This document shows positions 59,310-63,970 of a stretch of 64,000 bases of DNA, in pieces. Location of the stretch: NCBI RefSeq assembly GCF_001571145.1, contig NZ_BCTF01000020.1, positions 1 through 64,000 on the forward strand, read 5' to 3'. This DNA is from Hydrogenophaga flava NBRC 102514. Its GTDB lineage: Bacteria; Pseudomonadota; Gammaproteobacteria; Burkholderiales; Burkholderiaceae_C. A model generated the notes under the pieces. The model was not told the DNA's origin. It searched no databases and saw only the letters and a list, made by a program, of their open reading frames with translations. A program made the position numbers and the translations under genes. Numbering within the stretch: the stretch's first letter is position 1; each line of letters begins with the position of its first letter.

Positions 59310-60254
59310 TCAGACGCGCGTGCGACCGTGTCCGAGCACCATCTGGCCATCCACCAGACGGAAGCTCACCGTGGGAGCGCTGATGTCTGTGAAAGGCGCC
59401 CCCATCGAGAACTCGCCATCGCTGTGCAGCAGGCACTCCTGCCGCCTCAGCGCAATGGCGTTTTCAGCGCCTGCAAAGCGGACCCAGGTGCCGTAGCTGC
59501 TGGTGTCTTCCAGCAGGTAGTTGCCCGAACGGATGTCGATGGAGGCGTGCATCCGCGAGACCCGCGGATCGTTCACCACAAAATCGGCCTCGGGCACCCG
59601 ACCAATCTTCAACGGCAGGTCGGTGAGATTGAACGACTGGCTGGCATCGAGCCAACCGAGCTCGATGCCACCGAACACCGATTCGGTGCTCTTGCGCAGG
59701 GCATGCAGGTCTGCTGGCAGCGTCAGGAACTCCGACAGCATCTCGGTCTGCCATTCGATGCGGAAGACCTCTGCCGGCTCCACGCGCCCCTTGATGCGGA
59801 TCGGTCCAAGGCTGCGGCTGCGCACGTTCTGCCCTTTGCCCAGCTTGCGGATCACCATGTCGTTGACCAGGATCTGTTCCGGCCCCGCCAGATCGCTCAG
59901 GCGCGACGCCACGTTGACCGCGTCGCCGAAGCAGTCGCCGTCGACTTGCACCACCTGCCCGCGCGCCATGCCGATCTGCATCATCAGCTTGAGCCGGTTG
60001 GGCCACTGGGCCACCCGTTGCGAGTGCTCCTGCTGGATGGTGCTCATGCACTCGACCGCAAGCCGGTTGTTGGTGAACGAGAGCAGAACGCCGTCGCCCA
60101 GCATCTTGACGACCTTGCCGTGGTGTTCCAGTCCCATGGACCCGATCCACTGGGTCAGCTTGGTCACCGCCTTGGCGGCACGGTCATTGCCCAGTGTTTC
60201 AAACACGGAGACGCTGCCGGTCAGGTCCACGAAGGCAATCGTCAGTTCGGCCAT
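59310..60254 (-). CDS. Class III nucleotide cyclase domain fused to an FHA domain
   Basis: 314 residues. N-terminal cyclase domain: TIAFVDLTGSVSVFETLG (metal-binding Asp10-like), HGKVVKMLGDGVLLSF (second Asp), FGDAVNVASRLSDLA (transition-state Asn-x-x-x-Arg), so ATP cyclase activity is plausible. The C-terminal FHA domain (PLKIGRVPEADFVVNDPRVSRMHASI, LLEDTSSYGTWVRFAG) binds phospho-threonine, so activity may be governed by Ser/Thr phosphorylation. The protein is soluble. A CRP-like site lies 86 bp upstream in the divergent intergenic region. Confidence 0.88.
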   Translation of the reverse strand: MAELTIAFVDLTGSVSVFETLGNDRAAKAVTKLTQWIGSMGLEHHGKVVKMLGDGVLLSFTNNRLAVECMSTIQQEHSQRVAQWPNRLKLMMQIGMARGQVVQVDGDCFGDAVNVASRLSDLAGPEQILVNDMVIRKLGKGQNVRSRSLGPIRIKGRVEPAEVFRIEWQTEMLSEFLTLPADLHALRKSTESVFGGIELGWLDASQSFNLTDLPLKIGRVPEADFVVNDPRVSRMHASIDIRSGNYLLEDTSSYGTWVRFAGAENAIALRRQECLLHSDGEFSMGAPFTDISAPTVSFRLVDGQMVLGHGRTRV

Positions 60255-60990: not shown

Positions 60991-61920
60991 TCATCCCCAG
61001 AACATCAGGGCCTCACGCCCCTGCACCATCACCGCCACTTCCCGGCCCACCGGTAACAACACCTTGGTGGGGACATGCCCGAATGGCAGCCCCGTCAGCA
61101 CGGGTGTCCGGGTCTGGCTTCTAAGCCAGTCGACCACGGTCTGCAGCTTGAACCCACGGTCGTGTGGAACCGTCTTGAAGCGGTTGAAACTGCCCAGCAC
61201 GATCAGCTTCTGACGTCCCAAGATGCCCGCATGGAGCAGTTGCGTCAGCTGTCGTTCGATGCGGTAGGGATGCTCGTTGACATCCTCTAGAAACAGCACG
61301 CCGCCCTTCACATCGGGCACCCAGGGCGTGCCGACCAATGAACACAGCACCGACAGGTTGCCGCCCCACAACTGAGCTTTGTGCAGATGCAGCGATGGGG
61401 CATCTTCCCTGACGGTCGTGGGCAGACAGGGCAGGTCCTTTTTGGGCAGCACCCAGCCCGCGCCCTCGCCGTGCCCATCGAGCAGATCGTCAAAGCAGGC
61501 TTCCATGATGTCGTCGGGCTCTTCGGCACCAAAATCCTCCCCAAGGGCCGGGCCAGCCCAGGTCACGGCGCCCGTCTTGGCCAGCAGCGCGCATTGCAAG
61601 GCGGTGAAGTCGCTAAGGCCCACGAACTGCATGCCCTTGCCGATGGCTTTCGCGAGCTGTTTGTAAGGCAGTTCGGGCAGAAGGCGCGTGAGGCCATACC
61701 CACCGCGTGAAATCAGCGCCACGTCGGCGCCGCTGGCCGCTGCTCGGCCGATGGCTGCGATGCGGGTGGCGTCGTCGCCCGCAAACCGCATGTGGCTGCT
61801 GAGCGCAGCCTCGTCGATCTCGACCTCGTGGCCGAGGTGCTGCAGCCGTTTCACCCCGCGCCTGAAGGCGGCCTTGTCGCGCACGGCGCTGGACGGGGAA
61901 TAAATGTAGATGTGGCTCAT
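60991..61920 (-). CDS. ldcA: LD-carboxypeptidase (LdcA, S66 family)
   Basis: 309 residues. Removes the terminal D-alanine from murein tetrapeptides during cell-wall recycling in the cytoplasm. The family motif SRGGYGLTRLLPEL contains the oxyanion Gly and the segment GLSDFTALQCALLAK follows; the catalytic Ser is expected in GLSDFT (S-D), with Glu in FLEDVNEHPYR and His in HAGILGRQKLIVLGSF region. Start overlaps the TadA-dehalogenase stop by 4 bp (ATGA), so they are translationally coupled. MccF-like self-immunity enzymes share the fold, but the neighbours suggest housekeeping. Confidence 0.88.
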   Translation of the reverse strand: MSHIYIYSPSSAVRDKAAFRRGVKRLQHLGHEVEIDEAALSSHMRFAGDDATRIAAIGRAAASGADVALISRGGYGLTRLLPELPYKQLAKAIGKGMQFVGLSDFTALQCALLAKTGAVTWAGPALGEDFGAEEPDDIMEACFDDLLDGHGEGAGWVLPKKDLPCLPTTVREDAPSLHLHKAQLWGGNLSVLCSLVGTPWVPDVKGGVLFLEDVNEHPYRIERQLTQLLHAGILGRQKLIVLGSFNRFKTVPHDRGFKLQTVVDWLRSQTRTPVLTGLPFGHVPTKVLLPVGREVAVMVQGREALMFWG

Positions 61921-63314
61921 GGCTCGTTGAAGGAAACGGGATCGATGGAGAAGTGTTGACAGGCCGCGCGTGCAATCTGCTCCCCATGCTCGGGAACAAA
62001 ATGCCCAGCGTCAGGAATCAGCCACGGGGGCGGACAGCCCCGGATGTTACGTGCCAGTGCTTGCATGACAGGTTCTCCCAGCACCGGGTCGCGTACTCCC
62101 ACCGCCATCAGCGTCCGGCCTTGCCAGCGCTCGCGCCAGAACTGCAAGGCCTCGCGGGATATGGCCGCACCTTCGTCGTCCGCGTGCTCCGGCACCAGAG
62201 CCGGGAAGGCACGCAATGAGGCGCGATGGCCCGTGTCCGGGAATGGTGCGTTGTACGCCTCGCATTCGGCGGGATCGAGGTGCGGGTTGCCACGTGCGAA
62301 CAGGCGGCCGACGTCGTACAGCGGTTTGTCGGCGCACATCTTGCGCCACGCCAGAAACCCCGGAGACAGTGCCTCGTCGCCTGTGGCCAGCAGGGTGTTC
62401 ATCACGAGCAAGCCGGCATAACGCCCCGGTGAGGCCATCGGCAGGGTCAACCCGAGCAGGCCACCCCAGTCTTGGACCACCAGCACCACGTTGCGCAGGT
62501 CCAGCCGGTCCACGAACTCGAGCAGCACGTTGCGGTGCCAGTTGAAGCGGTGGAACGCGTCCTTCTTGGGTTTGTCGCTCTTGCCAAAGCCGATCAGGTC
62601 GGGCGCCACCACACGATCTCCCGCCTCGGTAAAGACGGGAATCATCTTGCGATAGAGATAGCTCCATGCCGGGTTGCCGTGCAGGCACAGCCAGGTGCGC
62701 GGCGCGTCCAGCGGCCCTTCGTCCAGGTAGTGCAGGCGAAGGCCACCCAGCGAAGGGAGATCGTTCAGGTAGCGCGGCGACCAGGGGTATCCCGGCAGCC
62801 CGTCGAAATGGCGTTCGGGCGTGCGCAGCGCGTCGTCTCGCAGTGGTTGGCCTTCGCGGCGCTGCTGCTCACGGCGGGCCTTGAAAAACTCGCTGAGCAG
62901 GTTGCCGCACTCGTCGGCCCGCACACCCCCCAAGACCTGGGTGTGGTGGTTCAGCTGCGCATGCCCGAACAGATCCACCACCGAGCCGGCGGCACCGGTC
63001 TTCGGATCATGTGCGCCGAAGACGACCCGCCGCAGGCGCGAGTGCAACAGCGCGCCGCTGCACATGGTGCATGGCTCCAGCGTCACGAACAGCTCGCAGT
63101 CATAAAGCCGGTAGTTGCCCAGGGTCTGCGCTGCCGCGCGAAGGGCGAGGATTTCTGCATGGGCCGTCGGATCGTGAGCGGCGATGGGCGCGTTGCGTCC
63201 CATGCCCACCACCCTGCCCCGGTGCACCACCACGGCGCCGACCGGCACCTCGCCCGCGGCGCGAGCGGCCTGGGCTTCTCTCAGGGCCAGGCCCATGTAC
63301 TCGGCGTCGTTCAT
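61917..63314 (-). CDS. tadA: TadA tRNA adenosine deaminase fused to a DhlA-like haloalkane dehalogenase
   Basis: 465 residues from MNDAEYMGL at 63314. Residues 1-155 are TadA, which makes inosine at the wobble base of tRNA-Arg: zinc and catalytic motifs HAEILALR and PCTMCSGALLHSR. Residues about 170-465 are a haloalkane dehalogenase very like Xanthobacter DhlA, with the nucleophile Asp and first halide Trp in VVQDWGG, the second Trp in FLAWRKM, the acid Asp in GVRDPVLG and the His in DAGHFVPE. All five key residues are present. The short linker shows a true fusion; it overlaps ldcA by 4 bp. TadA essentiality explains why the gene is kept. Confidence 0.9.
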   Translation of the reverse strand: MNDAEYMGLALREAQAARAAGEVPVGAVVVHRGRVVGMGRNAPIAAHDPTAHAEILALRAAAQTLGNYRLYDCELFVTLEPCTMCSGALLHSRLRRVVFGAHDPKTGAAGSVVDLFGHAQLNHHTQVLGGVRADECGNLLSEFFKARREQQRREGQPLRDDALRTPERHFDGLPGYPWSPRYLNDLPSLGGLRLHYLDEGPLDAPRTWLCLHGNPAWSYLYRKMIPVFTEAGDRVVAPDLIGFGKSDKPKKDAFHRFNWHRNVLLEFVDRLDLRNVVLVVQDWGGLLGLTLPMASPGRYAGLLVMNTLLATGDEALSPGFLAWRKMCADKPLYDVGRLFARGNPHLDPAECEAYNAPFPDTGHRASLRAFPALVPEHADDEGAAISREALQFWRERWQGRTLMAVGVRDPVLGEPVMQALARNIRGCPPPWLIPDAGHFVPEHGEQIARAACQHFSIDPVSFNEP

Positions 63315-63348: not shown

Positions 63349-63924
63349 TCAATCGAACAGCGACGGCTGCCGGTCATGCAGTGGCCAGCGGGCGACGACC
63401 TCGTGGTGGCCACTCCCATAGTGGCTGTCGACCAGACTCAGTTCGGTGACGTCCCAGGCCACCGGTTCGACGCGCTGCGCGCTGACGGGTTGGTGCTTGT
63501 AGTCCAGAGTGACATGCGGATAGAAGCCGTGCCTTATTCATTCGGCGGGCCATCCTGCCTTGAGCAGCGCAGCCACCAGTTGCCTCCGGAGATGGAACAG
63601 CGGCAACACCCCGGCGCCATGGCCCGCGAGCTCTACCGTACCAAGTTCGTCTCTTGGTCCGCGAGACTGCAGTGTGTCAAAACAGACCCGAAAAGGAGTC
63701 ACATCCAGCAGGGCGCCGGCGCGGAAAACCACCCTCAGGACTTCGGGAGGAATGCGGTGCTCGTACGAACCCAGAGGCACCAGCGTGGTATGCAGCCGAT
63801 CCTCCGCCATGGGTTTCGACGGGCCGCGGTATGAACGGTTGATGTGCTGTTGAAGGCGAGCCACCTTTTGCGCAACCGCTGGTGGCAGGCGCAGCATGCA
63901 GTACAAGTCGTGACGGAACTCCAT
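63349..63924 (-). pseudogene. LigT/ThpR-like 2',5' RNA ligase/cyclic phosphodiesterase gene, broken by an in-frame stop
   Basis: The first part (from MEFRHDLY at 63924) has the first HxT motif, LHTTLVPLGS, and ends at a TGA (63538-63540) after LKAGWPAE. Reading through in the same frame continues IRHGFYPHVTLDYKH, which holds the second HxT motif (HVT), and goes on to a natural stop at 63349-63351 after HDRQPSLFD. The 2H family needs both motifs, so the gene is a nonsense pseudogene unless the stop is read through or is a sequencing error. A perfect LexA box lies 47 bp upstream of the start codon. The downstream gene is tadA. Confidence 0.8.
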
Positions 63925-63970
63925 GCAACACCTCCTTGGGTTGCGTTGACGGAGTTCCATTGTGCATGAA

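Follow-up and report, generated by a model that had tools for sequence, protein, structure and literature searches.

The stretch of DNA analysed here (the window, 64,000 nucleotides) comprises positions 1–64,000 of contig NZ_BCTF01000020.1 of Hydrogenophaga flava NBRC 102514 (host genome label G000; in the following, G denotes genomes and L denotes loci). Its minus strand carries a gene (61917..63314) in which the tRNA-modifying enzyme TadA is fused to a haloalkane dehalogenase (HLD) of family HLD-I. The reading frame is free of stops from 63419 to 61917, and the ATG at 63314 yields a protein of 465 amino acids ending at a TGA stop. The TadA domain (residues 1–153; 62856..63314) scored 203.5 bits with the NCBIfam equivalog NF008113 (cut-off 150, residues 2–153) and is followed by a linker and junction (residues 154–162; 62829..62855). 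The HLD-I domain (residues 163–456; 61947..62828), assigned by profile, alignment and structure matches, scored 314.1 bits with the haloalkane dehalogenase subfamily PRK00870 (cut-off 265, residues 161–454). Both domains thus exceed curated cut-offs within a single stop-free open reading frame (ORF), in agreement with the preliminary description of this DNA, which had reported TadA fused to a DhlA-like haloalkane dehalogenase.

The TadA residues H52, A53, E54, P81, C82 and C85 belong to the invariant TadA columns, and the HAE and PCxxC motifs that they form are the zinc and catalytic residues of TadA. The fusion protein is the only close TadA found in the host genome, the two other deaminase-type matches being weak (E-values 1.5e-7 and 2.7e-4), and for this reason the N-terminal domain should, judging from its family, perform adenosine-34-to-inosine editing of tRNA-Arg.

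The catalytic pentad of HLD-I is defined as Asp-His-Asp plus Trp-Trp (PMC6920932). According to the alignment to DhlA, all five residues are present on the window protein, as had been described previously: the nucleophile D282 and the adjoining halide tryptophan W283 (DhlA D124 and W125; 62466..62471), the second halide tryptophan W323 (DhlA W175; 62346..62348), the catalytic acid D409 (DhlA D260; 62088..62090), and the catalytic base H438 (DhlA H289; 62001..62003). The best-scoring solved sequences were DppA (2xt0, 353 bits) and DhlA (1edb, 332 bits). Asn (N214) occupies the position of DhlA E56, and Val the position of DhlA L262, as in DppA.

The window protein was modelled with AlphaFold2 (AF2) using 11 sequences (predicted local distance difference test (pLDDT) 78, predicted template modelling score (pTM) 0.60). 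Foldseek matched the model to DppA 2xt0 with a template modelling (TM) score of 0.87 over the target and to TadA 1z3a with 0.89 over the target; at its modest confidence, the model indicates an alpha/beta-hydrolase fold with a cap.

Distribution of the fusion and repeated erosion of the dehalogenase

The preliminary description had proposed a survey of the fusion across Comamonadaceae. In the host's family (f1), 383 of 399 genomes matched at E-values up to 1e-20. Searches of the order (399 genomes) and the class (369 genomes), judged at E-values up to 1e-66, where weakly matching remnants would be missed, gave two-domain matches only in f1 and a neighbouring family (f3); the other 24 and 7 matches, respectively, cover the HLD part. 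In total, 212 tadA loci were read (197 from f1, four from f3, and 11 on contigs of named genomes of Limnohabitans, Ottowia, Delftia, Comamonas, and others), corresponding to 211 distinct loci, as L033 is identical to L289. Fused loci with all five catalytic residues were classed as intact and those without the full pentad as eroded; L158 (in-frame stop) as well as L218 and L272 (stretch ends early) were counted as eroded, and L039, without TadA, stands outside the 212.

The fusion proved widespread, with intact and eroded forms both common: 158 loci were fused (82 intact, 76 eroded), and 54 were without HLD. With one genome sampled per genus and 129 of 141 genera placed, 32 genera were intact, 44 eroded, and 53 TadA only; the 12 unplaced genera comprise ten without a strong tadA match, G107 (HLD match at a contig end, no tadA match), and G161, which was omitted. 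Of 37 genomes inspected from the host's genus, 28 have the fusion with the pentad, five an eroded fusion, and four gave no tadA match; overall, the two forms coexist in 11 genera. On the TadA tree, which is weakly resolved with its 149 columns, the intact label requires 33 changes, the eroded label 35 (at least 5 each forced by well-supported branches), and the TadA-only label three.

Erosion concerned the active site as well as the length of the domain. No pentad residue is left in 37 of the 76 eroded proteins, one in 23, two in seven, three in five, and four in four; by position, the nucleophile Asp persists in 8, the Trp at W283 in 7, the Trp at W323 in 25, the Asp at D409 in 14, and the His at H438 in 14. 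Extensions past TadA measure 0–62 amino acids in TadA-only proteins (n = 54) and 301–321 in intact ones (n = 82), while 53 of the 76 eroded extensions are shorter than 291 (minimum 174, except L158 at 111) and 23 have full length. The eroded domain is nevertheless rarely removed outright, and a core block, an SDxPKKxxxH loop and usually a PFPDxGHRA segment are retained. An example is the eroded protein of Comamonas denitrificans (L041): its TadA part scored 220.8 bits (cut-off 150), and its remnant scored 98.3 bits with PRK00870, below the cut-off of 265 and over profile positions 3–123 of 302 only. The AF2 model of L041 (pLDDT 80.8, pTM 0.53) consists of TadA followed by a reduced strand-helix core with a TM score of 0.50 to 2xt0; domain placement is unreliable in this model and in that of the window protein.

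As a side observation, L038 (Delftia), L130 and L296 keep four of the five residues, with Asp replacing W283; a different hydrolase activity is possible there.

Replacement of the eroded domains by a free HLD-I was considered and rejected. At E-values up to 1e-45, a threshold that more distant dehalogenases would escape, a free HLD-I turned up in one of the 71 eroded genomes, in three of 76 genomes with an intact fusion, and in eight of 54 with TadA only; as only one eroded genome has such a gene, the lost activity was not replaced by a close relative.

Selection and the catalytic pocket

Selection was estimated as the ratio of nonsynonymous to synonymous substitution rates (dN/dS; Nei-Gojobori, medians over disjoint within-genus pairs), and the values are rough pairwise ones from a gap-rich alignment. 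Intact-intact pairs (n = 14) gave 0.23 for TadA, 0.15 for the kept block, and 0.18 for the rest of the domain. The corresponding values were 0.18, 0.32 (maximum 0.603), and 0.47 (nine pairs) in eroded-eroded pairs (n = 12), and 0.36, 0.25, and 0.65 (six pairs) in intact-eroded pairs (n = 7). Even where the active site is gone, the kept block thus remains under constraint. At the positions of DhlA F172, F222, V226, and L262, all 78 intact non-f3 proteins carry the same residue. Given purifying selection in intact lineages and these fixed pocket positions, dehalogenase activity is plausible, and the dehalogenase of the window protein is probably active. We infer that dehalogenase chemistry is conserved in some lineages, including that of the window, and dispensable in others.

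Fusion-specific residues and retained motifs

Residues of the non-f3 fusions were compared with 24 free HLDs (22 fetched, plus DhlA and DppA). In the linker, P157, L158, R159, D161, and A162 are nearly invariant, so that P157-L158-R159-x-D161-A162 is common to these fusions. Motif 1 (S246–H255, SDKPKKDAFH; 62550..62579, minus strand) contains two fusion-specific lysines that are retained in eroded relatives. K250 is Lys in 78 of 78 intact proteins and Lys or Arg (74 and 2) in the 76 eroded ones, and K251 is Lys or Arg in the intact (74 and 4 of 78) and in most eroded proteins (59 and 15 of 76); both are found in 0 of 24 free HLDs. Motif 2 (A356–A365, APFPDTGHRA; 62220..62249, minus strand) contains the fusion-specific G362 (78/78 intact, 73/76 eroded, 0/24 free), which is retained in most eroded relatives. 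H255 is present in all 78 intact proteins and in 74 of the 76 eroded ones, but 10 of 24 free HLDs have it as well. Motif 1 was found in 76 of 76 eroded proteins, and strict motif 2 in 65 of 76 eroded and 73 of 82 intact ones, the nine intact misses being four f3 proteins and five with a change inside the pattern. Seventeen of the 65 eroded proteins with strict motif 2 terminate 7–19 residues past it. The mean net charge of residues 240–262 is +2.9 in intact, +2.6 in eroded, +0.8 in f3, and −0.2 in free proteins.

In L158 (G127, an assembly of 350 contigs), an in-frame TAA at about position 2283 follows directly behind motif 1 and the remnant continues in frame; the stop may be real or a draft error. 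TadA residues separating fused from unfused proteins were also sought; only positions 87 and 90 were distinct, and both are confounded with one tree split.

A second fusion and the origin of the basic loop

Four f3 fusions (L028, L269, L270, L271) form their own clade in the HLD tree, apart from the other fusions. A single origin of all TadA-HLD fusions was rejected on this tree (log-likelihood 67.16 lower when constrained, approximately unbiased (AU) test p = 0.0069), in which the bootstrap had not settled and the f1 clade has a support of 75/96. This points to a second, independent TadA-HLD fusion in the neighbouring family. All four f3 proteins have an intact pentad and are without the lysine pair and G362. 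The f3 linker has a Met just ahead of the HLD start that resembles a former start codon. In the HLD tree, the free proteins closest to the f1 fusions (L279, L300, L301) have LD, LD, and LH at the position of the lysine pair; therefore, the basic loop originated no earlier than the fusion branch.

Genomic neighbourhood

The fusion is followed by a gene for an ldcA-like peptidase S66 (LD-carboxypeptidase; 60991..61920, minus strand), whose start overlaps the stop of the fusion (ATGA) and which is a conserved neighbour. For the loci whose sequence extends 250 nt or more downstream (55 of the 212 fall short of this), a same-strand ldcA starts within 200 nt 3′ of tadA in all 40 intact loci, in 51 of the 64 eroded ones, and in 49 of the 53 with TadA only; ldcA lies farther off in seven eroded and one TadA-only loci and is not present in six and three, respectively. 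Two f3 loci (L028, L321) and G042, which belongs to another family, likewise have ldcA 3′ of tadA, but it was not found there in L322, L323, and L325. Because ldcA adjoins tadA in TadA-only loci as well, the HLD lies inside a gene pair that also occurs in its absence. An unfused HLD gene beside tadA, which would represent an intermediate, was looked for around 22 free HLD loci; the flanking sequence retrieved (mostly about 1 kb, 3–4 kb for L279 and L039) contained neither a tadA nor an ldcA match.

Upstream of the fusion and outside the window lie guaA (NF000848, 782 bits, cut-off 400) and guaB (TIGR01302, 631.5 bits, cut-off 481.5). No dehalogenation pathway genes were seen beside the fusion among the few neighbours inspected. 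An ORF upstream of the fusion (63538–63960, minus strand) resembles a LigT-like phosphoesterase at 23.5 bits, barely over the Pfam cut-off of 23.3. An ORF at 59310–60254 (minus strand) encodes a nucleotide-cyclase domain (Guanylate_cyc, 37.4 bits) followed by an FHA domain (44.6 bits).

A few genomes gave no strong tadA match. At L326 (G065:C12; G065 96% complete), ldcA is present and a gene for an outer membrane efflux protein (PF02321) occupies the expected place of tadA; G065 has no tadA match even at an E-value of 0.001, which could reflect loss, relocation, or an assembly gap. G014, G015, G101, G149, and G181 (94–100% complete) have neither a strong tadA match nor an ldcA match, and the tadA-ldcA stretch is probably missing from their assemblies.

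Discussion

Both domains belong to known families, and the locus combines two unremarkable enzymes in a fusion that is unusual yet conserved and for which there is evidence of co-option. The explanation that we consider somewhat better than evenly balanced is that TadA acquired its dehalogenase domain through insertion of an HLD-I gene between tadA and ldcA and subsequent fusion, after which the domain was recruited as a non-catalytic accessory of TadA. The insertion would have occurred in an ancestor of a Comamonadaceae-type clade, where the HLD-I reading frame became continuous with that of the C-terminal TadA helix, and the fused domain would have gained a second, catalysis-independent job for TadA. 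This job would depend on the core block, on the basic loop formed by K250, K251, and H255 behind the SDKP turn, and on the GHRA segment, and would most likely be RNA contact or a scaffold for the deaminase. Dehalogenase chemistry would be a separate, conditional trait, and many lineages would have lost the pentad and shortened the domain. Of the conceivable accessory roles, we prefer RNA contact on account of the basic nature of the new residues, although a scaffolding or stabilising role would explain the data almost equally well. In the more specific form, natural selection would have turned the HLD fold into an RNA-contacting TadA accessory whose basic loop (K250-K251-H255) and GHRA segment help to hold or choose the RNA, with an optional, repeatedly lost active site and shortened pseudo-dehalogenases that still serve TadA; this form we regard as possible and distinctly doubtful.

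Several observations count against such co-option. TadA occurs without any HLD in 53 sampled genera of the same family, and in G215, inside a fused genus, the HLD is seemingly lost, albeit near a contig end. Constraint on the kept block is weaker than in intact lineages (0.32 vs. 0.15). The residues D239, G242, G244, S246, D247, and P249, present in 76 of 76 eroded proteins, are equally invariant in free HLDs, so that much of the retained loop may be structural. As the four f3 proteins are without the lysines, a TadA-HLD fusion does not need them. The motifs were chosen after inspecting the alignment, residues 244–251 and 358–365 have a pLDDT below 50 in the model of the window protein, and the four eroded proteins with four pentad residues show that eroded does not always mean dead.

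The strongest competitor, to which we give a minor but serious share, is a decaying passenger: an accidental join with niche-dependent activity and no second function, the remnant being kept for translational coupling to ldcA (ATGA) and for a fold that does not aggregate. It would account for the proximity of ldcA with and without an HLD, for the rise of dN/dS in the kept block from 0.15 to 0.32 after erosion, and for the in-frame stop inside the remnant of L158. Against it, total loss within fused genera was observed in one genome (near a contig end) versus 76 erosions, though TadA alone is viable; no extension between 62 and 174 amino acids exists except L158; K250, K251, and G362 are retained though free HLDs do without them; and dN/dS of the kept block does not exceed 0.603 in 12 of 12 pairs.

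The preliminary description had stated that the fusion to an essential enzyme keeps the dehalogenase under strong selection. A bifunctional enzyme maintained in this way would fit the complete pentad, the fixed pocket positions, and the purifying selection in intact pairs; of the earlier interpretation, the TadA fusion with a complete pentad holds. As a general statement, however, strong selection on the fused dehalogenase is refuted by the partial or complete loss of the pentad in 76 of 158 fused loci, together with 44 of 76 fused genera eroded (one genome each), the 11 mixed genera, and 70 of 71 eroded genomes without a free HLD-I; selection on the dehalogenase through the fusion as such is not upheld, and we consider this explanation improbable. 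The alternative offered in the same description, a new role for the domain, is the better fit. Considerably less probable again is that the substrate hydrolysed by the intact domain is an endogenous electrophile, alkyl or halogenated, tied to nucleic acids (e.g., an alkyl lesion), so that the link to TadA would be catalytic. Two separate fusions to TadA at the same junction and the upstream position of guaA and guaB speak for this reading, but the pocket is that of a standard HLD-I and catalysis is dispensable in most sampled fused genera. A sequencing or assembly merge of two genes, which the preliminary description had named as a possible refutation, was rejected and has practically no probability left, as nothing was found in its favour and many separately assembled genomes, several of which consist of a single contig, show the same domain arrangement.

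Co-option as a TadA accessory, if true, would mean that an unrelated metabolic enzyme became part of a tRNA-modifying enzyme. The natural series of TadA alone, TadA with an intact domain, and TadA with a broken, often shortened domain allows loss of catalysis to be distinguished from retention of the domain across lineages. It also implies that proteins of this group annotated as dehalogenases from sequence similarity may be pseudoenzymes and that probable HLD-I activities are hidden in proteins scoring as TadA. Multidomain members have been mentioned in HLD surveys. A literature search, conducted mostly without subscription journals, found no paper on a TadA-HLD fusion or its erosion. EnzymeMiner 2.0 is described as leaving out HLDs that have additional domains (PMC13355053); mining of this kind would therefore skip the TadA-HLD fusions.

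Comparison with known systems

The N-terminal part shares the whole catalytic domain with TadA of E. coli (1z3a) and S. aureus (2b3j), including HAE and PCxxC. These proteins comprise 168 and 159 residues, respectively, whereas the fusion continues after the C-terminal helix with a 300-residue domain. With DhlA (1edb) and DppA (2xt0; 55% identity in the structural alignment) the fusion shares the fold and the Asp-His-Asp plus Trp-Trp pentad, and it differs from them by being joined to TadA, by Asn at the position of DhlA E56, by the lysines after SDKP, and by Gly 362; many of its relatives are without the active site. The f3 fusions have the same two domains, the same junction, an intact pentad, and, where checked (L028, L321), a downstream ldcA, but differ in their separate origin and in having neither the lysine pair nor Gly at 362. 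An engineered precedent for basic changes on an HLD fold is HOB (6zcc), a HaloTag7-based oligonucleotide binder with positively charged surface changes for oligonucleotide-attached chloroalkanes (PMC8388125); the changes in the fusion, in contrast, are natural and located in an HLD-I domain.
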